Part shown: positions 1,015-12,184 of the stretch, piece after piece
How positions within the stretch are numbered: position 1 is the stretch's first letter
How the letters are laid out: each line of letters begins with the position of its first letter
Assembly: GCA_026770575.1 (NCBI GenBank)
Contig: MU657178.1
Span: 345,186 to 357,369 of the forward strand
Direction: 5' to 3'
Source of the DNA: Pelagophyceae sp. CCMP2097
Lineage: Eukaryota > Sar > Pelagophyceae
DNA: 12,184 nucleotides
Made by a program: the position numbers and the translations under genes
Notes under the pieces: generated by a model
Told to the model about the DNA's origin: nothing
The model's input: only the letters and a program-made list of their open reading frames with translations
Databases searched by the model: none

Positions 1015-1935
1015 TGCTGACAAGAGCTACAGAGTCGAGGTCCATTTGACGAGGGCCCCGCGACACGTTGCCCGGAACGAGGTTCCCGTCACAAGGTCCC
1101 TCAGCGGCCTGTGACGAGGCCCCTTTAACAGGGCCCTGTGACGAGGTCCCTATTGACGAGGGCCCTGTGACGCGGTCCTTGGGAAGGCCCTTTGAAAATG
1201 TCCCTATCAGACAAGGTCCCTCTGACGGCGTCCCTCTGGCAAGAGTTCCAGAGTCGAGGCCCCTGTGACGAGGGCCCCGTGGCAAGGTCTTTGGACAGGC
1301 CATATGAATAGATCGCTATAAGACAAGGTCCCTTTGACGGCGACACTCTAGCAAGAGTTCCAGAGTCGAGGACACTGTGAAGAGGGTCCGTCACGGGGGC
1401 CCTGTGGCAAATGTCCCTGTTCCCGTAAAAGTCCCAGTGATGAGGGCCCTATGAAAAGGTCCCAGTGGCGAGGTCCCTCTGACTCGGTCCCTCTGGCAAG
1501 AGATCTCGAGGTCCCCGTGACGAGAGCCCGTGGGGTAAGTGGGGTCCCTATGACAAAGGTCCCGTTGACCAGGTCCACATGACAAGATCGCCTTGACAAG
1601 GTCCCTGCGTTGAGTTTCCCGTGACGAGGGCCCCGCGACACGTTTCCCGGAACGAGGTTCCCGTCACAAGGTCCCTGTGACGAGGTCCCTCTAACAGAGC
1701 CCTGTGACGCGGTCCTTGGGAAGGCCCTTTGAAGAGGTCCCTATCAGACAAGGTCCCTTTGACGGCTTCCCTCTTGCAAGAGCTCCAGAGTCGAGGTCCC
1801 TTTGACGAGGGCCCCGTGGCAAGGTCCTTGAACAGGTCCTCTGAAGAGGTCCCTATCAGACAATGCCCCTTTGACGGTGTCCCCCTGGCAGAGTCAAGGT
1901 CCCCGTGACACGGTCCTTGGGAAGGCCCTTTGTTG
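1015..1935 (+). repeat. Array A: degenerate ~14-bp tandem units (GTGACGAGGTCCCT-like)
   Basis: Units such as GTGACGAGGTCCCT recur with variable length, together with a longer phrase, GGCAAGAGTTCCAGAGTCGA, near 1020, 1250, 1345 and 1775. Nothing protein-coding is supported: the open frames give low-complexity Gly/Pro/Arg/Ser-rich peptides and shift with each unit. Confidence 0.85.
1048..1835 (+). repeat. Segmental duplication within array A (offset 575 bp)
   Basis: The run beginning GACGAGGGCCCCGCGACACG at 1048 recurs at 1623, and similarity continues for over 200 bases to about 1290 and 1835. The second copy lacks about 30 bases, roughly two units, near the position equivalent to 1125-1165. 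Confidence 0.8.
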
Positions 1936-2190
1936 ATCATGGAGTTTTATATATAGGAATTCCTATATATATTATTTTAATAAGAATTCTATTGAGCTAT
2001 TGAGGGATCGACGAACGTTTGTCGTCGTCGTCGAATCTCTGAGTAAAAAGCAAAAAAAGCAGCCTCAGTGGAGTGCATAATAGAAGAAGAAGAAGAAAAG
2101 TGTGCATTACTAGGAATTCCTAGTACTAGGAAGGATTCCTACTACAATTGTAGTAGGAATTCCTAAAAATCGGGGTCGTAGAAGGATTAG
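1936..2190. other. AT-rich island of nested palindromes and microsatellites
   Basis: A perfect 24-bp palindrome centred on GGAATTCC occupies 1948-1971. ACTAGGAATTCCTAGT is a perfect palindrome at 2109-2124. CCTACTACAATTGTAGTAGG is another near 2138-2157, itself flanked by inverted GGAATTCC-like arms. Microsatellites GTC (about 2019-2033) and AGA (about 2083-2097) lie between. The base composition differs sharply from the GC-rich arrays on both sides. No gene seen. Confidence 0.8.
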
Positions 2191-2203
2191 TGTACAAGGG
2201 GCC

Positions 2204-2333
2204 TTAGGCGGTCTCGGCCTTCCCGACGATGTAGCTCGGCTCCTGCGCGGCCTCGGTAATGCAGTAAATTAGCCATTTTCAGCACGCCAAAAAGCACCGA
2301 AGTCTTCCCGCCCACCCAGCAGGCAATGGTGCC
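2204..2333 (-). pseudogene. Truncated, frameshifted 3' end of a second AMT copy
   Basis: Minus-strand codons give GTIACWVGGKTSVLFGVL then KMANLL, matching AMT residues 417-441. After a frame change they give CITEAAQEPSYIVGKAETA and TAA (2206-2204), matching the AMT C-terminus. Compared with exon 4, 56 nt are missing (equivalent to 6376-6431), with an AG dinucleotide at both ends of the missing piece. The loss removes the conserved tail RVSEE to SKHGG and breaks the frame. Similarity stops abruptly at 2333, where the 13-bp array begins. About 12 bp of 3' flank (GTGTACAAGGG) are also shared. Many differences are in third codon positions, suggesting the copy derives from a once-functional paralogue. 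Confidence 0.9.
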
Positions 2334-2560
2334 TCGAGATGGCCCCTTTCGATGGCCATTCGACACGGCGCCTTGAGACGGCCCCTCGAGACGGCACCTC
2401 GAAATGGCGCCTCAGAAGACTCTCTCCAGCCCCTCGAGACGGCCCACTTGAAGACGGCCATTCGAAAAGGCCCCTCGAGACGGCTTCTCGAGACGGCCTC
2501 TTGAGACGGCCCCTTTCGACGGTCGTTTGAAACGACTCCTTGAGACGGCCCCTGTAGAGG
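2334..2560 (+). repeat. Array B1: 13-bp units (GCCCCTCGAGACG)
   Basis: GCGCCTTGAGACG, GCCCCTCGAGACG and GCACCTCGAAATG follow one another at exactly 13 bases near 2370-2410, with variants across the block. It begins directly at the end of the AMT pseudogene. Confidence 0.85.
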
Positions 2561-2775
2561 ATCGGACGGTCTCTCGGACGGTCGCTTGGGCGGTCCCTTT
2601 GACAATTCCTTCGGACACTTCCTTTGAGGGTCCCTCGACGGGCCCTCTGCGACGGTCGCTTTGACTGCGGTTTCTTGACGGTCCCTTGGACAGTCACTCG
2701 GCTGCCGGTCCCTCGACTGCGGCCCCTCTGCGATGTTTCCTGGACAGTCCCTTGGAGTCGCCGCGGCGGCCCGGT
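2560..2775 (+). repeat. Array C1: 12-bp units with conserved inner block
   Basis: CGGACGGTCCCT-type units, including the phrase TTTGAGGGTCCCTCGACGGG (2622-2641) and a conserved ~55-bp block around 2697-2750 (GGCTGCCGGTCCCTCGACTG and following). Similar blocks occur in C2 and C3. Confidence 0.8.
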
Positions 2776-3090
2776 CTCTTGCAAGGAGCCCTGCGTGGGG
2801 CTTAAGAGTGGCCTTGAACAATGCCTCGCAAGTGATTGCGCAGAGACCGTGCAAGTGACCGCGAAAGAGGCCTTGCACTGGCAGGGGCCCGTCCTGAGGG
2901 CTCTTCAAGGGCCTTTCAAAGAGCCCTTGCAAGCGACCGCGCAGAGGCCGTGTAAGTGGCCACAAAAGAGGCCTTGCAGGGGCCCGTCCGGAGGGCTCCT
3001 CAAGAGCCCTTGAAAGAGGCCTTGTAAGCGACGTGCAGAGGCAGGGCAAGTGGCCGCGAAAAAAGGCCTCACAGGGGCCCGCACTGTCGA
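2776..3090 (+). repeat. D/E block 1: ~100-bp tandem units (AGAGGCCTTGCA-rich)
   Basis: Starts with a short D phrase (TTGCAAGGAGCCCTGCGTG). The phrase GGCCTTGCA...GGGGCCC recurs near 2869, 2971 and 3065, so the period is about 100 bases. Inner words are AAGTGGCCGC, AAGCGACCG and CAGAGGCCGTG. Confidence 0.75.
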
Positions 3091-3098
3091 ACATGGTG

Positions 3099-3298
3099 GC
3101 GGGAGCAGGGACGGTGTCTTCGGGTTCCAATTTGTGCCACGCCCTCGGGATGCGGGTTTTTCAAACGTCCAAGCCCGTCTTTTCGGGTCGGGTTCGGGTT
3201 TGTGCCATGGCCAGACCCGCGGGTCGGCGGGTCGGCGGAAACGCGGGCAAACACGACCCGCGGTTTTCGGGCAAACCCGAACCCGTCCCTGCTCCTGC
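3099..3298 (+). mobile_element. F1: ~200-bp element with terminal inverted repeats
   Basis: Left end GCGGGAGCAGGGACG (3099-3113) and right end CGTCCCTGCTCCTGC (3284-3298) are inverted copies with one mismatch in 15. The interior is itself an imperfect palindrome: CGGGTTCGGGTTTGTGCC-like words in the left half, GGCAAACCCGAACCC-like words in the right. No coding capacity. It resembles a non-autonomous DNA element (MITE-like). No clear target duplication was seen, so the mobile-element call is inference. Confidence 0.6.
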
Positions 3299-3400
3299 TT
3301 GGACGGTCACTCGACTGCCAGCCCCTCGACTGCACCCCCTCTATGCTGTTCCCTTGACAGTCGCTCGGACAGCCGCTTGACCGGTCGCTCGGGCGGGCCC
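3299..3400 (+). repeat. Array C2 (short)
   Basis: Contains the conserved block GGACGGTCACTCGACTGCCA with CCCCTCGACTGCACCCCCTC, then 12-bp units. It joins F1 directly to the next E block. Confidence 0.7.
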
Positions 3401-3700
3401 TTAAAAGAGGCCTTGCAAGCGACTTGTGCAAATGCCTTGTAAGTGGCCGCAAAAGAGGCCTTACAGGGGCTCGCCCGGAGAGCTTTTCAAGGGCCCTTGA
3501 AAGAGGCCGCACAAGAGGCCTTGTTAGTGACCGTGCAGAGGCCGTGCAAGTGGCCGCTAAAGAGGCATCTGGAAGGGCCTGCCCGGAGAGCTTTCAAGGG
3601 CCCTTGAAAGAGGCCTCGCAAGCGACCGCGCGGAGGCCGTGCAAGTAAACCGCCAAAGAGGCCTTGCAGGAGTCCGACTGTTAAACATCCGGTGGCGGCG
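3400..3700 (+). repeat. E block 2: ~100-bp tandem units
   Basis: GGCCTTACAGGGGCTCGCC at about 3451 and related phrases near 3564 and 3660 repeat at roughly 100 bases, with GAGAGCTTTTCAAGGGCCCT following. Same family as 2776-3090. Confidence 0.75.
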
Positions 3701-3713
3701 CCGTACAGCCACT

Positions 3714-3943
3714 GGCAGGAGCAGGGACGGTGTATTCGGGTCGGGTCGGTTTGCTCAATTTGTGCCGACCCAAAAGGCCGCGGGTTTGTCGAGATACCAA
3801 AACCGTCTTCCCGAGATACCAAAACCGCGGGTTCGGGTTCGGGCCACGGCCAAACCCACTCAAAGACGGGTCGGCCAAAATGCCGCGCAAACCTGGCAAA
3901 CCCGACCCGCGGGTTTCACCGTCGCCTCAGCAACGCTGCTCCT
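3714..3943 (+). mobile_element. F2: TIR element copy
   Basis: Left end GCAGGAGCAGGGACGG at 3715-3730. The right end is recognisable as CCGTCGC...GCTGCTCCT with about 10 extra bases inserted. Shares GCTCAATTTGTGCCGACCCA with F5. The sequence before it, AAACAT...GGTGGC, matches the left flank of F1. Confidence 0.6.
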
Positions 3944-3949
3944 CTCTCC

Positions 3950-4260
3950 GGTTTCTCGAGACGGCCCCTTTCGACGGCCCCTTTCGACGGCCCCTTTCGA
4001 CGGTCCCTGGAGACGACCCCTGGAGACGGCCCCTTTAGACAGCCATTCGAAACGGCGCCTTGAGATGGCCCCTTTTGACGGTCCCTGGAGATGACCCCTG
4101 GAGACGGCCCCTTTCGACGGCCATTTGAAACGGCGCCTCGAGACGCCCCTTTCGGCGGCCATTCGATACGGCGCCTTTTAAACGGCCCCTCGAGAAGGTG
4201 CCTCGAAATGACCCTTGGAGACGGCCATTCGAAACGACTATTCGAAACGGCCCCTCGCAC
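3950..4260 (+). repeat. Array B2: 13-bp units
   Basis: Three near-identical 13-base units ACGGCCCCTTTCG stand at 3961-4000, followed by variants such as CGAAACGGCGCCTTGAG. Similar in composition to B1. Confidence 0.85.
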
Positions 4261-5370
4261 AGTCGCTTGGGCGGTCCCTTGTTCCTTTGTACAGTTCCTT
4301 TGAGGGTCCCTCGACGGGCCCTCTGCGACGGTCGCTTCGACGGCGTTTTTTCGGCGGCTTGGACGGCTGCCGGCCCCTCGACTGCAGCCCCTCTGCGACG
4401 CCCCCTGGACGGACCCTCGGACAGTCGCTCTGACGGTCGCTCGGGCGGTCGCTCTGACAGTCGCTCGGGCGGTCCCTCGGACGACCCCTCGACGGTCCCT
4501 CGGACGATCCCTTGAACAGTTCCTTTGGACAGTTCTTTTGGACAGTTCCATTGGAGGGCCCCTTGGAGGGTCCCTCGACGGCTCCAGAGACGGTCCCTCT
4601 GCGACGGTCCCGTGGACGGTCCATAGGACGGTCATTTGGACGGCCGCTCGACTGTGGCCCCTCTGCGACGTCCCGCGGATGGACCCTCGGACGAACTCTG
4701 CGGCGGTCCCTTGGGCGATCCTTTAGACAGTTCCTTTGGACGGTTCTATTAGGGGCCCCTTGGAGGGTCCCTCAACGGTCCCTCGACGGTCCCTCTGCGA
4801 CGGTCCCGTGGACGGTCCCTCAGACGGTCGTTTGGATGGTCCCTCGAACGGTCCATCTGACGGTCCCTTAGGCGGACCTTTGGACACTTCCTTTGGACAC
4901 TTCCTTTGGACTGTTCCTTGGACGGCCCCTTGGGCGGTCCCTCGGACGGTCCCTCTACGACGGTTCAGTGGACGGTCCCTTTGGCAGTCCCTTGGGCGGT
5001 CCCTCGTCAGTCCCTCGTCGGTCCCTTTGTGGCAATCCCGCATAGGGTCCCTCGGACTGTTCCTTGGACGGTCGCTATGCTGCCGTCTCCTCGACTGGGA
5101 CCCCTCTGCGTCCCTCTGGGCGATCCCTCGGATGGGCCCTCGGACGGTCGCTTGGATGGTCCCTCCGACGCTCCCCTGGATGGTCGCTTGGGCGGTCCCT
5201 TAAGCGGTCCTTTTGGATAGTTCCTTTGAGGGTCCCTCGACGGGCCCTCTGTGACCGTCGCTTTGACGGCGGCCCCTCGGCGGTCCCTTGGACGGTCACT
5301 CGGCCCCTCGACTGCGGCCTTTCTGCTACGTCCCCTGGGCAGGCCCTCGTACGGTCGCTTGGACGGGCCC
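4260..5370 (+). repeat. Array C3: long 12-bp array (~1.1 kb)
   Basis: GGACGGTCCCTC units at 12 bases, clearest at 4425-4500 and 4780-5035. The phrase TTTGAGGGTCCCTCGACGGG occurs near 4303 and 5223. The conserved block with CCCCTCGACTGCRGCCCCTC lies near 4375, 4650, 5092 and 5307. Because 12 is a multiple of 3, long open frames of repeating tetrapeptides arise on both strands; they carry no recognisable domain. Confidence 0.85.
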
Positions 5371-5555
5371 TCTATCAAACCATATGGCATCCGGTGCGAT
5401 GAACGGTGGAAGGGACCCCGTAAGGGCCCGAACACGCGTCTCTGACAAGGAACCCTGCGTGCGGGCTTGATAAGGCCCTTCAAAGAGGCCTCGCATGTGA
5501 CCGTGCAGAGGCCTTGACCGCCAAAGAGGCCTTGCGGGGACCCGTCCGGAGTGCT
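5371..5555 (+). repeat. D/E block 3 (plus orientation)
   Basis: Begins ATCAAACCATATGGCATCC (5376-5394), then GGGACCCCGTAAGGGCCC, CTGACAAGGAACCCTGCGTG, GCTTGATAAGGCCC and AAAGAGGCCTCGCA. Nearly the same sequence occurs as reverse complement at 9372-9506. Confidence 0.85.
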
Positions 5556-5725
5556 TTCCAATTTGTACCAAAGGGTCGCGGGTTTGTCGAGCGACGAAAC
5601 CCGTCTACTCGGGTCAGGTTCGGGTCACGGCAAGACCCGCGGGTCGACAGGTAGGCCAAAACGCACAAAAGCGGCAAACCCGACCCGCAGGTTTGGGGGC
5701 AAACTGGAACCCGTCGCTGCTCCTG
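5556..5725 (+). mobile_element. F3: TIR element copy, left end missing
   Basis: Matches F1 from CCAATTTGT onward (GCGGGTTTGTCGAG, AACCCGTC, CGGGTTC, GACCCGCGGGTCG). The right terminal repeat ACCCGTCGCTGCTCCTG (5709-5725) is present. The first about 25 bases, including the left terminal repeat, are absent. Confidence 0.6.
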
Positions 5726-5734
5726 GGCCATTGC

Positions 5735-6110
5735 TTTTGACGGGACCTCAGAGGCTCTGCAGGGTCCCTTGCAGAGGCCTCTTTGAAGGGCCCTCGCAAG
5801 CTGTCACGCCCATCAAGCCCCCACGCACAGTTCCTTGCAAGGGCGCCCTGACAGGATCCTCATCGCAAAGGGCCTTGACCCTCCCGAGGGCCCTCTCTGC
5901 ACGGGCCCTCGTGCGGTCCGAGGGCGGGCCTTGTAGCAATATACGTCCCTCTCGCCTTGCAAGGCCTCGGGGTTCCCTGCGAGACCCTCGCACGGGGCCT
6001 CTTGGGCCCTGCCGAGGCCCCAGGGCGGTCCGTTCCAAGACTTGACGGCCCCTCCTATTGCGCCCCTCCCTCGCACGGGCCCTGGGCAACCCTCCTGTAC
6101 GGTCCCCTGC
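5735..6110 (-). repeat. Inverted E/D block and degenerate GGGCCCT-rich array
   Basis: CAGAGGCCTCTTTGAAGGGC (5773-5792), CATCAAGCCCCCACGCACAG (5811-5830) and TTCCTTGCAAGGGC are reverse complements of the E and D phrases at 5430-5510, so F3 lies between inverted E/D blocks. From about 5870 to 6110 a degenerate array of CCCTCGCACGGGCCCT-like words follows. No gene seen. Confidence 0.65.
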
Positions 6111-6180
6111 GAGGCCGTGTGCACGGCGACTCCTGGAAATGGCGGTTTTGGTTGAGGCGGGGGCCCGAAAGAGAGCGGCG

Positions 6181-6240
6181 GTCTCGGGGTTTGGGGCTTG
6201 TCGAAGACCCCCGGACCCGCGGCCCCTTTGTCGAGCCAGA
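6181..6240 (+). repeat. Dispersed repeat H, right copy
   Basis: TCTCGGGGTTTGGGGCTTGT and CGGACCCGCGGCCCCTTTGT, then CGAGCCAGAGTC, match 956-1014. The hairpin arms have decayed. It lies about 75 bases beyond the AMT stop, in or next to the 3' untranslated region. Confidence 0.75.
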
Positions 6241-6314
6241 GTCAAAAGCAAAGATGTGTACATTAGGAACTCGTCTAAATTGTGTCGAGGTCAGTGTACA
6301 AGGGACGTGCGGCC

Positions 6315-7355
6315 TTAAGCGGTTTCAGCCTTCCCGACGATGTACCCCGGCTCCTGCGTGGCTTCCGGGATGCAGCCGCCGTGCTTGGAGTCGTCCATGC
6401 CCATGTCTTCGACCTCTTCCGAGACGCGTAGTAAATTCGCCATTTTCAAAACGCCAAACAGACAAGAAGTCGTCCCCCCAACCCAGCAGGCAATCGTCCC
6501 GATGCACCCTAAAGCGGCGACCATGCTCCCGCCGTCGCCGCCGAAAAAAAGGCCGGCACAGTCGTCCTTGCGGGCCGAGTTGTACGACATTTCATAGTAA
6601 TAAGGGGTCGCGAAAAATGCCGCGGCAAGGACACCCCACATGCCGCAGACGCCGTGCACCGCAACGGCGTCGACGACGTCGTCGACGCCTAAGAGCTTGA
6701 CGACTTTGGATCCAGCGATGAAAATGGGGCCCGCTAAGAGGCCGATAATAAACGCCCCCAGATGATTGCAAGACGAACAAGGAGAAGTGATCGAGACTAA
6801 CCCAGCCAAGATGCCGTTGTTCACCAGCGAAGGGTCAATAATGTGCGTTTGGAGGTATCCAAAAGCCGTGCAAGAAAGGCATGACGTCCCCGCTGCTATG
6901 GTAGTCGTCATCACCACATGCCCCGCCGCAGCCCCTAAACCACCGGTGATTTGGAGCGTCGAAGCCGCGTTGAAGCCGTACCAGCCCGTCCACAGAATGA
7001 ACACACCCAGAGCTTGATACACCGGATTGCCATAAGGAAGAACATATCCAGGATCCCACCGACCCTTGCGCGGCCCGACGAACAACGCAGCTACAAAAGC
7101 GGCGCACCCGCCGGTCATGTGCACCGTCCCGGAACCGGCGAAGTCGATAACGCCGCATCCACCGACTAAGCGGTTGTCCCTGAATGCGGAAAACTTACCA
7201 TCCCCCCACATCATGTGTACGACCGGCGGGTAGATAAACCCGGACAGCGCCACGGCATAGCAGATGTACGCCGTAAAACTACAGCGTTCGGCGACGGCGC
7301 CGGAGACGATGGTGGCAGCGGCGCCGGCGAAGGTGAAACCGAAGAACCAGGACGC
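6315..7355 (-). CDS. AMT: AMT exon 4 (terminal exon, 1041 nt)
   Basis: Starts after CTATAG| (AG at 7357-7356) with codons for ASWFFGF and ends at TAA, 6317-6315. Encodes residues 132-477: the signature Asp and both pore histidines, most of the transmembrane helices, and the cytosolic tail. The frame is open well beyond the first in-frame Met or GTG, and similarity to AMT extends upstream to the acceptor, so no start codon is needed here. Ser454 in DDSKHGG occupies the place of the regulatory Thr of plant AMT1 proteins (Thr460 of Arabidopsis AMT1;1). This alignment was made by eye. Confidence 0.95.
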   Translation of the reverse strand, partial: ASWFFGFTFAGAAATIVSGAVAERCSFTAYICYAVALSGFIYPPVVHMMWGDGKFSAFRDNRLVGGCGVIDFAGSGTVHMTGGCAAFVAALFVGPRKGRWDPGYVLPYGNPVYQALGVFILWTGWYGFNAASTLQITGGLGAAAGHVVMTTTIAAGTSCLSCTAFGYLQTHIIDPSLVNNGILAGLVSITSPCSSCNHLGAFIIGLLAGPIFIAGSKVVKLLGVDDVVDAVAVHGVCGMWGVLAAAFFATPYYYEMSYNSARKDDCAGLFFGGDGGSMVAALGCIGTIACWVGGTTSCLFGVLKMANLLRVSEEVEDMGMDDSKHGGCIPEATQEPGYIVGKAETA

Positions 7356-10300
7356 CTATAGGTTTTATTACTATAGGTTAAACTATGAGGCATGAGGGTG
7401 TTTATTTATATCCCGGCAAGAGAAAACTGGAGAGGTGATGAACTATAGTTACTATAGAACATAGACCCCCCCGGACAACAGCCCCACCCACGGTGGATCA
7501 TACGCAAGCAACGTAAGAACAATGGAACACCCCACCCCCGCCAGGAGCAGGAACGGTGTCTTCGGGTCGGATCGGGTTTTCAATTTGTGCCGCACCCTCG
7601 GGTATCGGGTTGGTCGAGCGACCAAACCCGTCTTCGAGAGGTCGGGTTCGGGTTCGGGCCACGGCCAAATCGACAAGACTTTTCAAAGGGCCGTCGAAAG
7701 AGGCCGCCGAGACGGTGCCGTCTCTCAGGACCGTCTCGAGTGGCCCTCGAAAAAGGCAGTCTGAAGGCGCCGTCCCGAGGCACCGCCTTGGGGCATCTTC
7801 TCGACGGGCCTCCCTGAGGGGCCGTCTCACAAGGCCGTCTCGAGGGGCTTTTCGAGGGGTTCACTCGAGAGGCTCTTTCGAGGCGCCGTCGAGACGGCGC
7901 CGTCTCAAGGTGCCTTCTCGAGAGGGTGTCAAGGCCCTTGCGAGGAGCTTAGAAGGGGCCCTGTAAGGACCCGAACAGGGGTCTCTTGCAAGTCACAATG
8001 TGTGGGGGCTTTTCAAGGGTCCTTGAAAGAGGCCTCGCAGCTTAAACGGGTCCGGGTTCGCCCTGAAGACCCGTGGGTCGGGTTCGCCGGGTTTGTGCGT
8101 TTTGGCCTTCGCCGTCATAGAGCGGGTCTGGCCGTGGCCCGAACCTGACCTCTCGAAGGCGGGTTTGATCGCCCGGTAAACCCGCGACCCTTTGGGTTCG
8201 GCACAGATTGAGCAACCAGACCCGCCATTGCACGGCCTCTGTGCGGTCACTTGCACTGGCAAGGCCTCTTTGAAGGTCCCTTGAAAAGCCCTCCGGATGG
8301 GCCGCTGCACGGCCTCTTTCAATTGGATCGCACAGCTCCGAACCACACGTCTTTCGAGCGGCGCCCTCCGAAAGGCGCCCGCGCAGCGGATCGGGCCTCG
8401 GGAGCCACGGTCCACGCGACGTTTAGATGGGCCGAATGGTCGTCTCGAAAGGCCGTTTGAAGGGACCGTTTCGAAGGGCCGGCGAGAGTGGCCTTCTTGA
8501 AGGGCTGACTCGACGGGCCCTCCAATGGCGCCGTTTTGTGGCGTCGTCTCAAGGCGCCGTTTCGAGATGCCTTCACAAGGGGCTTTTTCGAGGCACCGTC
8601 TTATGCGCCGTCTCGAGCGGCCGTCTTGAGACGCCGTTTCGAAGGGCCGCCTCAAGGAACCCTCTCGAGGGGGTTGTCCAAAAGCATCGTTTCGAGGGGC
8701 CGTCTCGAGGGACCGTCTAAAGGGTCCATTTTGAGGGACCCTCTCGTAAGGCTGGCGAGAGGGGCCGTCTCGAGGGACTGTCTCGTAATGCCGTCTGACA
8801 GAGAGGTCGTTTCGAGGGGCCCTTCGAGAAGCCGTCGAGCAAGGCCTTTTCGAGGGGCGTTCAGGGGACCTTGAAAGAGGCCTTGCAAGCGACCACACAG
8901 AGGCCGGGCAAGCGACTTCCAAAGTAGCTCTTCGGACGGACTCCTGCTAGGCCTCTTTGGCAGCTACTTGCAAGGCCTCTTTCAAGGGCCTTTGAAAAGC
9001 TCTCCTTGGCGGCCCCTGCAGACTCCTTGGCGGGCCCCTGCAGAGGCCTCTTTGGCAGCCACGAGGCCTCGGGATGGTCCGTTGGACGGTCCGTCCCTTT
9101 CTGGGCACAAGGCTCCGAAGTACGGGTTTCGCACGTGCAAGGCCGAGACAGACGCACCAGGAGCTTAAATGGGTTCTTGCAAAGGGAACCCGCAGGTCGG
9201 GTTTGGCGGGTTTGTGCGTCGTGGCTGACTCGTCTTTGAGTGGGCCAGGCCGCGGCACAAACCCGACCCGCGAAGACGGGTTTGACAAACCCGCGACCCG
9301 AGGGTTCGGCACAAATTGAAAAGCTCTGCGGACAGGCCCCTGCAAGGTCTTTTTGGCGTTCACTCACCAGGCCTCTGCACGGTCACTTGCAAGGCCTCTT
9401 TGAAGAGCCTTATCAAGCCCCCACACAGGGTTCCTTGCCAAAGACGCGCGTTCGGGCCCCTATGGGGTCCCTTCATCCTTGCTCGCATGGGATGCCATAT
9501 GGTTTGATAGCGGTGTGAGAGCCCGTCCAAGTGACCGTCCGAGGACCCGTCCATGTGACGTCGCAGAGGGGCCGCAGTCGAGGGGCCGGCAGCCGAGTGA
9601 CCGTCCAAAGGACCGCCCAAGCTACCGTCCGAAGGGCCATCCAAACGACCGCCCGAGGGACCGTCGCAGAGGATAGACCCGTCGAGGGGCCACAGGTCCG
9701 TCCGAGGCTCCGCCCCGCGGGACGTCGCAGAGGGGCCGCAGTCGAGCGGCCGTCCAAACGGCCGCCCCATGGACCGTCCACAGGACCGTCCAAGGGACCC
9801 TACAATGGACTGTCCAAAGGAACTGTCCAAAGGACCGCCCAAGGGATCGTCCGAGGGACCGTCGAGGGACCATTCGTCGGACCGTCCGTGGGACCGACCG
9901 AGCGTCCGAGGGACTGTCCGAGGGCCCATCCAGGGGACGTCGCAGAGGGGCTGCAGTCGAGGGGCCGGCAGCCGAGCGACCGTCCAAGGGACCGTCGAGA
10001 AACCGCCAATAAAAGCGACCGTCACTGAGGGCCCGTCCAAAGAACGATCCACATGAATTGTCCAAGGGACCGTCAAAGCGACCGTCCGAGGGACCGACCG
10101 AGCCTCTCGAGGGGCCGTCTCAAAGCGCCGTTTCGAATGGCCGTCGAAAGGGGTTGTCTCGAGGGGTCGTCTCGAGGGGCCGTTTCGAATGGCCGTCTCG
10201 ACGCGCCGATTCGAGGGTCGTCTCGAGAAGCCGGGGATGAGCAGGGAAGGCTTCGGGTTTACCCTTCAACCCGTGGGTCGCGTTTGCCGCGTTTAGGCCG

Positions 10301-10991
10301 ACCCGTATACCCGCGGGTCTGGCCAAAACCCGAACCCGACCCTTCGAAGACGGTATCTCGACAAACACGCCGAGGGTGCGGCACAAACCCGATTCGACCC
10401 GAAAACACCGTTTAAGCACCCGGTCAAAAAGTAAACACGTACCTCCGCGTGCCCCTTGAGTGACGTGGCGCCGACGCTGAGGAATGACTGGTCTCCCGCG
10501 AAGCCGTTTTCGCCAGTCGAGCCAAAGTCGTCGCCGCCGCCCGCCGCTAAAGCGTTGCCCGTGGCCCACCACGTCAGCGAAGCGATTGCCGCGTCGAAAA
10601 AGTTCTTCACGAGGATGTTCTTCGTGTTCTTCTTGTGCACCGTGCCGACCTCGAGCATGGCGAAGCCGGCCTGCATCCAGAAGACGAGGACGCCTGTGAA
10701 GCGGGCGTCTGGGGCCACATGATATGACATTCCAATGGGCGCTCAGACTCTTGCGTTGGGTATAGGGGCGAAAGGCTCATCAATAGGACGGACCTCCAAA
10801 AATGAGCCAAAAGGAGTCCATGTCCGATGCAAAGTTCTCGTCCAACCTGTGTACTCCGCGTCTGCAATAGTCTTCCCCGGGATGTAAACCCTCGAGCCTC
10901 ACCGGCGTTGATGCTGCAGGTCAGCGCCCATGGCGTCCATCTGCGCCTGCAGACCGACGATCAAAGCCTCGAGGTCCGCGTTGGACGCCAT
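6315..10991 (-). CDS. AMT: Ammonium transporter, AMT family, four exons (477 aa deduced)
   Basis: Spliced gene: exons 10991-10903, 10846-10794, 10693-10443 and 7355-6315, joined at GT-AG borders with phases that fit (2, 1, 0), giving 477 residues, a normal AMT length. AMT proteins are trimeric membrane channels or transporters that take up ammonium. Visible in the sequence: the segment around residues 42-64 (SFWLIFGG, then VLVFWMQAGFAMLEVG); TIVSGAVAERC near residue 150; the signature DFAGSGTVHMTGG, with Asp202 and His210 spaced like Asp160 and His168 of E. coli AmtB; WYGFNAAST near 256-264; and VDAVAVHGVCG with His365 in the place of the second pore histidine. The C-terminal cytosolic tail contains MGMDDSKHGG. 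The start has A at -3 and G at +4. No signal peptide is evident; the first 30 residues are polar to amphipathic. One oddity is FFGFTF near residue 135, where most relatives have Gln in place of the first Gly. Family assignment is sure; the exact start is less so. Confidence 0.93.
7542..7669 (+). mobile_element. F4: TIR element copy, right half missing
   Basis: Left end CCAGGAGCAGGAACGG at 7541-7556, then TGTCTTCGGGTCGG, ATTTGTGCCGCACCCTCGGG and GGTTCGGGCCACGGCCAAA. Similarity stops near 7669, where 13-bp-type repeats begin. It lies near the 3' end of AMT intron 3, antisense to the gene. Confidence 0.6.
7690..7935 (-). repeat. Array B3: 13-bp units, reverse orientation
   Basis: GCCGTCTCGAGGGGC and CGCCGTCTCAAGG-type words are the reverse complement of the B consensus, with more length variation than B1 and B2. 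Lies in AMT intron 3. Confidence 0.75.
7936..8038 (+). repeat. D/E block 4
   Basis: GGGGCCCTGTAAGGACCCGA, GGGTCTCTTGCAAGTC and GTGTGGGGGCTTTTCAAGG match the D consensus in the plus orientation. It directly abuts F5. Confidence 0.7.
8040..8224 (-). mobile_element. F5: TIR element copy, reverse orientation
   Basis: The reverse complement reads TTGCTCAATCTGTGCCGAAC, CGCGGGTTTACCGGGCGATC and GGTTCGGGCCACGGCCAGAC, closest to F2. The terminal repeats are altered: the 3' end is replaced by a TTTAAGC-type sequence shared with F6. Confidence 0.55.
8225..8330 (-). repeat. E block, reverse orientation
   Basis: GCACGGCCTCTGTGCGGTCA, CTTGCACTGGCAAGGCCTCT and TTGAAAAGCCCTCCGGATGG are the reverse complement of E words at 2860-3010. 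Confidence 0.7.
8331..8435. other. Unassigned intronic stretch
   Basis: About 100 bases between an E block and array B4, without a clear match to the other repeat classes. No coding signal recognised. Confidence 0.4.
8436..8870 (-). repeat. Array B4: 13-bp units, reverse orientation
   Basis: GTCTCGAGGGGCC-like units with many variants, e.g. CGCCGTTTCGAGATGCC, GGCCGTCTCGAGGGACC and GTCTCGAGGGACTG. The longest B array in the window, inside AMT intron 3. Confidence 0.8.
8871..9065. repeat. Head-to-head E blocks
   Basis: Plus-oriented E (GAAAGAGGCCTTGCAAGCGA, 8874-8893) turns near 8930 into minus-oriented E (AGGCCTCTTTGGCAGCTACT, then CTTTCAAGGGCC). This makes an inverted repeat of roughly 60 bases per side, followed by two copies of CTTGGCGG(G)CCCCTGCAGA. 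Confidence 0.7.
9156..9320 (-). mobile_element. F6: TIR element copy, reverse orientation
   Basis: CAGGTCGGGTTTGGCGGGTT, GGCCGCGGCACAAACCCGAC and GTTCGGCACAAATTGAAAAG are the reverse complement of F words. One end reads CCAGGAGCTTAAATGGGTT, related to the F terminal repeat CAGGAGCAG. Confidence 0.55.
9321..9515 (-). repeat. D/E block 5, reverse complement of 5371-5555
   Basis: Includes AGGCCTCTTTGAAGAGCCTT, ATCAAGCCCCCACACAGGGT, GGGCCCCTATGGGGTCCCTT and GGATGCCATATGGTTTGATA-type sequence (near 9488-9507), all reverse complements of the plus-strand D block. Confidence 0.85.
9516..10095 (-). repeat. Array C4: 12-bp units, reverse orientation (~0.58 kb)
   Basis: GAGGGACCGTCC units (reverse complement of GGACGGTCCCTC). 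The conserved block CGCAGAGGGGCCGCAGTCGA stands near 9564 and 9729, with a close variant near 9940. It is about half the length of C3. Confidence 0.85.
10096..10234 (-). repeat. Array B5: 13-bp units, reverse orientation
   Basis: CTCGAGGGGCCGTCTCAAAG, CGCCGTTTCGAATGGCC and GTCGTCTCGAGGGGCC units. Occupies the mirror position of B2 relative to C and F. Confidence 0.8.
10235..10410 (-). mobile_element. F7: TIR element copy next to the intron 3 donor
   Basis: The reverse complement starts ACGGTGTTTTCGGGTCGA, continues ATCGGGTTTGTGCCGCACCC and ends CCCGAAGCCTTCCCTGCTCA. So the right terminal repeat is present in degraded form, while the left lacks GGAGCAG. In sense with the AMT transcript and about 30 bases inside the intron. 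Confidence 0.6.
10443..10693 (-). CDS. AMT: AMT exon 3 (251 nt)
   Basis: Begins after acceptor TTCACAG| and ends at GCGGAG|GTACGT (donor at 10442-10441). Encodes residues 49-131, including VLVFWMQAGFAMLEVG, NTKNILVKNFFDAAIASL and TWWATGNALA, all typical of the first two AMT transmembrane segments. A Gly/Asp-rich loop follows and ends KGHAE. The phase-0 end fits the phase-0 start of exon 4. Reading on past the donor gives residues unrelated to AMT, within the repeat-filled intron. Confidence 0.92.
10794..10846 (-). CDS. AMT: AMT exon 2 (53 nt micro-exon)
   Basis: A 53-nt exon between acceptor ACACAG| (10848-10847) and donor GGAG|GTCCGT (10793-10792). It encodes LDENFASDMDSFWLIFG plus split codons at both ends. 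The residues SFWLIFG run directly into the VLVFWMQAGFAMLEVG of exon 3, which is the usual beginning of the first AMT transmembrane segment. Introns 1 and 2 are then 56 and 100 nt. The join to exon 3 rests on this protein continuity; an in-frame TGA lies upstream of exon 3 in the unspliced sequence. Confidence 0.85.
10903..10991 (-). CDS. AMT: AMT exon 1 (start exon, 89 nt)
   Basis: ATG at 10991-10989 opens MASNADLEALIVGLQAQM and continues to residue 29, plus two bases of codon 30. The reading frame meets TGA directly after the proposed splice point, so splicing is required. The donor is CG|GTGAGG at 10902. The start context AGTATGG is favourable for eukaryotic initiation. The exon encodes only the hydrophilic N-terminal leader, so similarity alone cannot confirm it. 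The choice rests on phase: it leaves two bases, which match the single leading base of exon 2. Confidence 0.75.
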
Positions 10992-11758: not shown

Positions 11759-11871
11759 TGCTCGTCCACGCCCTGCTCTTCCACGACACGCGTCGCGTAA
11801 GCCATCCCCCTCCGCAAATCTTCCATTGCTCGTCCACGCCCTGCTCTTCCACGATACGCGTCGCGTAAGCC
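11759..11871 (-). repeat. Two tandem copies of dispersed repeat G (offset 68 bp)
   Basis: TGCTCGTCCACGCCCTGCTC at 11759 and again at 11827, each continuing TTCCACGAYACGCGTCGCGT to TAAGCC, separated by 23 unrelated bases. They are the reverse complement of the left copy at 841-884. The 68-base offset breaks any shared reading frame. Confidence 0.85.
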
Positions 11872-11940
11872 ACCCTTCGCTTGCGAGTGCGTTCGTTGCG
11901 TGTGCTCAAAGGTATTAGGTCTATTGCGTCTACTAACAGC

Positions 11941-11992
11941 GTGTGTAAAATGGTTTTACACGAGGTCGCCGGTTCGAGCCCGGCTTTGCGTA
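11941..11992 (+). other. tRNA 3'-half-like sequence 1 (T arm, box B)
   Basis: GCCGG-TTCGAGC-CCGGC at 11968-11984 is a perfect 5-bp T arm with the box B motif GGTTCGAGCCC, preceded by AGGTC as in a variable loop. Upstream, CGTGTGTAAAA and TTTTACACG can pair as a hairpin (11940-11962). TTTGCGT follows as a possible acceptor strand. A weak acceptor partner, GCTCAAA at 11904, would leave one mismatch, but there is no D arm with GG or recognisable anticodon loop, so this is not called a tRNA gene. Confidence 0.45.
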
Positions 11993-12032
11993 TAAAAATA
12001 ATTCGAAAAAATGTCAGCAAGTGAAATGAATG

Positions 12033-12064
12033 TACGCCGGTTCAAATCCGGGTCTGGGTGCCAA
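12033..12064 (+). other. tRNA 3'-end-like sequence 2 ending in CCA
   Basis: GCCGGTTCAAATCCGGG (T-arm-like, one closing mismatch; box B GGTTCAAATCC) followed by TCTGGGT and GCCA, which looks like an acceptor strand, discriminator and encoded CCA. No ACCCAGA-like 5' acceptor strand, D arm or anticodon arm is found upstream. Confidence 0.4.
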
Positions 12065-12184
12065 AAAAACTCAATAGGAATTGGATGTTTTTATATGCAC
12101 TTTTCTTAACTGGCTCCTGGCACTGGGACCGGAATTCCCTTTTGCCAGGGCATACGTCAGTGGCAGATGGTGTCATATTTTCAT

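Follow-up and report, generated by a model that had tools for sequence, protein, structure and literature searches.

The genome of the Arctic alga Pelagophyceae sp. CCMP2097 contains, on contig MU657178.1, a stretch of 12,184 bp (G000:C15:345186-357369 of a 66-Mb assembly; hereafter the window) in which three families of short tandem repeats, arrays A, B and C, share a GGYCCCT anchor while each has its own unit length. This raises the question of how such arrays came to lie together and to recur elsewhere in a genome whose published assembly is described as having 62% GC and 27% repeats (PMC9756366). Arrays B and C are very probably the internal cargo of a non-autonomous composite transposon of the hAT type, typically arranged E-B-C-D-E, in which E by itself is a miniature element. 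D is a fourth repeat family, of degenerate ~12/24-bp units, and both D and E belong to the composite together with B and C. Beyond the window, the genome was sampled at individual loci (L001 and so on) and at stretches that together make up a small part of the assembly.

Repeat units and the composite architecture

The periods of 14, 13 and 12 bp given for A, B and C in a preliminary description of this DNA were reproduced by Tandem Repeats Finder, self-identity and unit spacings. Array A (1015-1935) had an identity of 0.45 at lag 14 (Tandem Repeats Finder and self-identity), array B (forward at 2325-2556 and 3950-4258, reverse at 7680-7930, 8425-8865 and 10103-10232) had 0.51-0.64 at lag 13, and array C (forward at 2557-2770 and 4259-5380, reverse at 9515-10102) had 0.45-0.52 at lag 12, the mean background for array stretches over lags 5-30 being 0.26-0.29. 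The right half of the window thus also holds B and C, on the reverse strand. Consensus units, gathered from window and genome arrays after seeding with the A, B and C unit forms, were GGTCCCTGTGACaA for A (115 units, modal spacing 14), GGCCCCTCGAGAC for B (424 units, modal spacing 13) and GGTCCCTtGGAC for C (300 units, modal spacing 12). The shared anchor is present and proved wider than the proposed heptamer, GAC coming directly after it in all three consensuses. In comparisons with letter shuffles, the alignment of B with C, which contains a single mismatch and a single gap, had P=0.002, and the pairs A-C and A-B had P=0.018 and P=0.06, with alternative A and C consensuses giving 0.013 and 0.038.

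It had been proposed that the three families occupy separate blocks and diversified from one ancestral unit by a change in spacer length. Each family does keep its own period, but B passes directly into C within one composite, so these two are not unrelated separate blocks. Common ancestry is supported for B and C, since their consensuses align, they lie side by side in the element and their order repeats at other loci; for A it is only suggestive, the tie consisting of the shared core and a weak consensus similarity. A-like arrays occur in L004, L015, L042 and L044, and the similarity of A to those of L015 and L042 does not extend past the array. Array A is a separate minisatellite, weakly related to the others and not composite cargo in the places where it was seen.

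The wider distribution of the anchor was surveyed in 116,227 non-N bases from 15 stretches set at round coordinates, on contigs picked from those with B-type 20-mer sites and therefore possibly biased toward repeats. The core GGYCC was found in 24 of 43 arrays of period 11-14, where letter shuffles predict 6.7, in 8 of 38 arrays of period 15-20 (9.5 expected) and in 14 of 47 of period 21-30 (13.5 expected). Full GGYCCCT occurred in 5 arrays of period 11-14 (0.4 expected), in 0 of period 15-20 (0.7 expected) and in 6 of period 21-30 (0.8 expected), this last count including double units of the same arrays. The anchor is therefore over-represented in 11-14 bp arrays across the sampled genome, but it is not peculiar to A, B and C. 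Blocks of the types seen in the window accounted for 3.4% of the surveyed non-N bases and were present in 5 of the 14 stretches with more than 1 kb of sequence.

When loci were labelled with the window blocks, the order E-B-C-D-E was recovered in one orientation at L001, L004, L007, L015, L043, L069 and L070, and also within the larger clusters of L041, L042 and the window itself. Loci L001-L008 had been found through an exact B-type 20-mer (375 sites) and were hence chosen for B, L005 lying inside L041. The junction from E to B (CTGCTCCTATCTCCGGCTCCTCGAGACGG and variants) repeats across loci, and in L041 a complete E-B-C-D-E is followed by further B-C-D, and consecutive composites there share an E. 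In the window, the block at 2332-5725 resolves into a left-truncated B-C-D-E (to 3297), a truncated C-D and a fuller composite at 3716-5725.

The order of units within the arrays is largely inherited between loci, which indicates that the arrays were copied as blocks. When 20 array pairs were compared with alignments of whole-unit shuffles (100 each), 15 exceeded every one of their shuffles, with z values of 14-24 for B arrays of the wB4 type, 17-50 for C, 4-10 for A and 2.2-6.3 for other B pairs; the B array at 8425-8865 has the same unit order as those in L027, L041 and L042. Array lengths vary between copies, and a landmark within C of L001 repeats at 226, 224 and 224 bp; long C arrays grew by modules. 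The arrays do not have the character of classical satellites, with long homogenised arrays, being short, decayed and inherited in unit order.

Element E, its ends and the target-site duplications

Element E is a palindromic, dispersed sequence of ~200-218 bp with inverted ends CAGGAGCAGGGACGG...CCGTCCCTGCTCCTG. The 15-mer CAGGAGCAGGGACGG of its terminal inverted repeat (TIR) has 158 exact sites genome-wide (73 forward and 85 reverse), seven E copies have both exact core TIRs, and one copy folds as a long hairpin (z -4.7). Being short, non-coding, TIR-bounded and multi-copy, E has the characteristics of a miniature inverted-repeat transposable element (MITE). The TIR consensus of hAT transposons starts with CAG and ends with CTG, as do the ends of E, and 8-bp duplications were found at 8/8 in two and at 6/8 in three of the eight inward-facing pairs of TIRs described below; the hAT label rests on these duplications together with the CAG...CTG ends.

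Pair statistics were drawn from 100 listed TIR sites of the 158. Ten neighbouring pairs lay 0.5-2.5 kb apart, eight of them facing inward, two pointing the same way and none facing outward, an inward excess relative to strand shuffles (mean 2.5, P=0.00035). For the eight inward pairs (1.2-2.4 kb apart), the adjacent 8-mers matched at 8, 6, 3, 6, 6, 8, 4 and 0 of 8 positions, whereas the 56 cross-pairs had a mean of 2.32 and a maximum of 6 (reached once), and only 12 of 40,320 permutations attained the observed total. Three inward pairs more than 3.7 kb apart matched at 2, 4 and 1 of 8. Both copies with perfect duplications, L069 and L070, were read end to end and are complete E-B-C-D-E composites, L069 (with a long C) carrying GCGTCGAC on both sides and L070 carrying CCCCGAGC on both sides. 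A solo E at L049 has a 7/8 flank match. The flanks of different copies are unrelated, starting at the TIRs, and in the window the fuller composite has adjacent 8-mers that match at 6/8 only with one extra G allowed after the right end and otherwise, by eye, at 4/8.

The condition of the ends follows their position. Complete copies are bounded on the outside by intact terminal repeats of E, inverted relative to each other. The terminal TG was kept in 0 of 13 inner right ends (those of left E copies) and in 12 of 13 outer right ends (those of right E copies). Of 13 inner left ends, three retained CA with at least 9/12 matches. As some E copies were chosen by exact TIR, the outer-end scores are biased upward, the inner TG count not. 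The outer left end of the fuller window composite, at 3716, is intact, although in the tally of outer left ends given below it counts among those not scored as such. Inner ends that are mostly damaged and outer ends that are kept suggest that a transposase could use the outer ends alone. By its duplications, present at five of the eight inward pairs including the two copies read end to end, and by orientation and end damage, the composite has the features of a macrotransposon, in which the outer ends of two elements mobilise everything between them.

The probable mechanism is that a hAT-type transposase, acting in trans, cuts just the two outer ends, such that the whole cassette would move as one piece, and it is this transposition of E-B-C-D-E that would explain the dispersal of the arrays. 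The arrays would have formed before dispersal by tandem duplication, including that of ~224-bp multi-unit modules, and decayed later by mutation, with several insertions and rearrangements filling the transporter intron and the intergenic array blocks. An autonomous hAT partner of E would be expected to carry CAGGAGCAGG ends. Domains for hAT dimerisation were found above the cut-off at nine places in the genome and in none of 14 control genomes. The two complete composites consist of nearly nothing other than E, B, C and D, and four longer open reading frames (ORFs) across them matched no Pfam family at an E-value of 0.1. With an ORF that spans the arrays as protein query, two of 1147 candidates matched, both of them JGI records (P0121 and P0122, the contigs being 999 and 1239 bp long) whose translations resemble the composite by eye; the composite is thus probably also present in environmental sequence.

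Competing explanations and known systems

Several observations weigh against the composite transposon. Three of the eight inward pairs have no duplication (C15:268804 at 3/8, L001 at 4/8 and L043 at 0/8), and the composites L004 and L044 match at 2 and 2 of 8; composites without duplication may be chimeric or old. At L048 a solo E lies between the two copies of a 38-bp direct repeat (34/38 identical) in place of 8 bp. The architecture also varies, with L044 in the deviating order E-D-B-D-E, L027 without C, and L042 holding E-B-C-D-E beside a form without C, while truncation or nesting affects the composites of the window, all of which lack a clean duplication. Outer left ends were scored intact in 7 of 13, the others being tandem, truncated or variant copies and the intact end at 3716, which the scoring missed; the outer right end of L007, counted as having TG, matches at just 7/12 bases, and a genome search for an E with the variant end GCTTAAACGG exact on both sides found none. 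Unit order is unshared between the arrays wB1 and wB2 (z -0.5). Neither an autonomous partner nor a transposase attributable to E was found; among the exact TIR matches listed, none lies near the hAT-domain loci of C7 and C11, the other such loci lying outside that listing.

Some of these irregularities would suit a cassette that spread by segmental duplication or ectopic recombination between E copies, without transposition. The consecutive composites of L041, the truncated composites of the window and the loci without duplications (C15:268804, L001, L043, L004 and L044) all fit such a process, which probably contributes locally to the clusters. As an account of the whole it is unlikely, given that the unrelated flanks start at the TIRs and that five of eight pairs match at 6-8 of 8 positions. 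The arrays could instead be independent minisatellites produced by local slippage and unequal exchange, with an unrelated E inserting nearby by chance, as GGYCC arrays of period 11-14 occur away from E, copies differ in array length and A is not cargo where seen. This is distinctly improbable in view of the repeated E-B-C-D-E order and E-B junction, the inherited unit order and the 8-bp duplications that bracket whole composites, evidence that speaks against it for B and C but not for A.

The preliminary description had offered as an alternative a selected binding site at set helical spacings, and a protein-binding site of this kind would accord with an anchor slightly better conserved than the spacer (79-83% versus 66-76%, computed from the collected units) and with the recurrence of the GGYCC core in other 11-14 bp arrays. 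That suggestion finds no support in anchor conservation, folding or inherited unit order and is very improbable: the neighbouring GAC is about equally conserved in some families, no period from 12 to 14 bp is a multiple of the helical turn, the arrays have decayed, and folding in four array stretches does not exceed that of shuffles (z +1.7, +1.2, +0.9 and -0.6), on which hairpin folding of the arrays was also rejected. Finally, E might be the long terminal repeat (LTR) around the non-coding interior of a terminal-repeat retrotransposon in miniature. Its copies are direct terminal repeats, consecutive L041 composites share one, and the left and right E of L069 are the most alike pair, at an identity of 0.92. 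That pair is an exception, since the two E copies of a composite resemble each other, on average, no more than E copies of different composites do (0.823 versus 0.812, 11 composites), which speaks against an LTR-like origin and on which E as an LTR was rejected; with CA...TG inverted-repeat ends and 8-bp duplications in addition, this explanation is scarcely credible. The hAT-type composite remains the explanation preferred here.

Helitrons are not known to have terminal inverted repeats or to make target-site duplications. The composite resembles them in having satellite-like arrays between conserved ends, as described for Helitrons (PMC12628747), but E terminates in inverted repeats and is bordered by 8-bp duplications, and a Helitron was accordingly rejected. 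The closest parallel in mechanism is with the Ac/Ds macrotransposons of maize, likewise hAT elements, in which the ends of two nearby copies are reported to mobilise the intervening DNA with 8-bp duplications (PMC9910405). In CCMP2097, unlike in Ac/Ds, the flanks are miniature elements of ~200-218 bp with mostly damaged inner ends, and the cargo is minisatellite DNA in many copies of one design. Small DNA transposons with tandem arrays able to seed satellites are described for Xstir and miDNA4 of Xenopus (PMC12628747) and Tetris of Drosophila virilis (PMC4079207). The CCMP2097 element carries tandem arrays as these MITEs do, but their arrays, so far as described there, lie within one element or its TIRs, whereas here a pair of E copies brackets arrays that differ in unit length and usually stand in one order.

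Introners, which are transposon-like intron elements, have been described in pelagophytes, with one family in Aureococcus making 8-bp duplications (PMC9860276), and an intron-length peak at ~210 bp is given for Pelagomonas (PMC9481584). E resembles introners as so described in being transposon-like, intron-borne and associated with 8-bp duplications. E as an introner, an element that provides or co-opts the splice sites of its intron, was rejected in the two genes concerned, the intron ends lying outside E in both the window gene and a paralogue on contig C61. No element of the E-B-C-D-E form appeared, by title and abstract, among the papers listed in searches of one library on repeats of this alga or of pelagophytes, minisatellite-bearing MITE or hAT elements, macrotransposons, introners and eukaryotic composite transposons with MITEs.

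With this analysis a satellite pattern that had lacked an explanation becomes a mobile-element model open to testing, in which minisatellites of different unit length can spread into genes as a package. A broader proposal, to which about an even chance is given, is that the element is a stable multi-copy eukaryotic counterpart of bacterial composite transposons, in which a 13-bp/12-bp/D minisatellite cassette is locked between two miniature hAT elements whose inner ends are dead, and through which the genome and its introns were seeded with an 11-14 bp GGYCC superfamily. Composites locked by damaged inner ends and present in many copies would represent natural macrotransposition outside maize.

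The ammonium transporter genes and other features of the window

The features of the window are collected in the table. Two pieces of the ammonium transporter match PF00909 at 1.3e-67 and 1.5e-12. Composite pieces make up most of its 3.1-kb intron and much of the intergenic DNA of the window; those in the intron are on the gene's own strand, and the E ends at 10417 and 7542 face inward, 25 and 186 bp away from the splice sites.

Features of the window, with coordinates in bp from its first letter
Feature	Position	Strand	Remarks
Array A	1015..1935	+	14-bp units GGTCCCTGTGACaA, duplications of 112 bp and longer; outside the composite
Remnant of the C-terminus of a second ammonium-transporter copy	2190..2331	-	stops where array B begins
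Composite 1, array B (13 bp)	2332..2556	+	left E missing
Composite 1, array C (12 bp)	2557..2770	+	one ~220-bp module
Composite 1, block D	2771..3085	+	degenerate ~12/24-bp units, ~95-bp higher-order repeat
Composite 1, E	3100..3297	+	keeps right end CCGTCCCTGCTCCTG intact, with CGGGAGCAGGGACGG on the left; much stronger folding than in shuffles
Composite 2, left-truncated	3298..3676	+	C 3298-3395, D 3396-3676
Composite 3, E-B-C-D-E	3716..5725	+	E 3716-3945, B 3946-4258, C 4259-5380, D 5400-5554, E 5555-5725
Ammonium transporter gene (PF00909)	6315..10991	-	start codon at 10991; exon upstream of the large intron runs to 10443; last exon 7355-6315
Ammonium-transporter intron, GT...AG	7356..10442	-	3,087 bp; mostly composite material
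Left half of E	7542..7675	+	outer end CAGGAGCAGGAACGG, points inward from the intron acceptor side
B and D	7676..8035	-	B 7676-7930, D 7931-8035
E, variant end	8040..8222	-	end CCGTTTAAGC
D, B and D	8223..9070	-	D 8223-8330, B 8425-8865, D 8866-9070
E, right end altered	9120..9322	-	
D and C	9323..10102	-	D 9323-9475, C 9510-10102
Array B (13 bp)	10103..10232	-	
Left E of the intron composite	10233..10417	-	variant outer end GCTTAAACGG, lying 25 bp into the intron from the donor site

Two close paralogues of the transporter on contig C28 are open and without interruption. In the paralogue on C61 (L032) a solo E lies within an intron whose position is shared, by eye, by a gene on C51 without E, so E sits in this intron without defining it. 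The solo E of L032 has ATTGGCCGTAT and ATTGTCCGTAT near its two sides, and its ends are variant. In the window, blastn aligned 2189-2264 with 6293-6375 at 79.5% identity, the rest of the remnant's extent being judged by eye; repeat invasion, or what followed it, perhaps destroyed the second transporter copy.

Scans of the whole window with Rfam at gathering thresholds and for tRNAs gave no matches. At its right edge, 11873-12184 is a dispersed repeat that shares 92-94% identity with L018:3612-3931 and with L010:4794-5060; by eye it continues beyond the window. This repeat holds two GGTTCRANNCC motifs, which resemble tRNA B boxes, and is possibly a short interspersed nuclear element; ARAGORN found no tRNA in 11873-12184, and one exact 29-mer from the repeat had just two occurrences in a genome search. 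A sequence of ~50-60 bp (GCTTACGCGACGCGTGTCGTGGACGAGCAG...) at 834-884 recurs in inverted orientation at 11759-11809 and 11816-11875 (93-94% alike). Between array A and the transporter remnant, 1945-2170 is AT-rich with nested GGAATTCC palindromes (by eye) and is perhaps another miniature element. The sequence preceding array A (956-1014) and that at ~6183-6240, which closes another degenerate repeat region (5736-6250), share a block GGGGCTTGTCGAAG.CCC...CCCTTTGTCGAGCC (partly by eye) that may mark where another family of elements ends.

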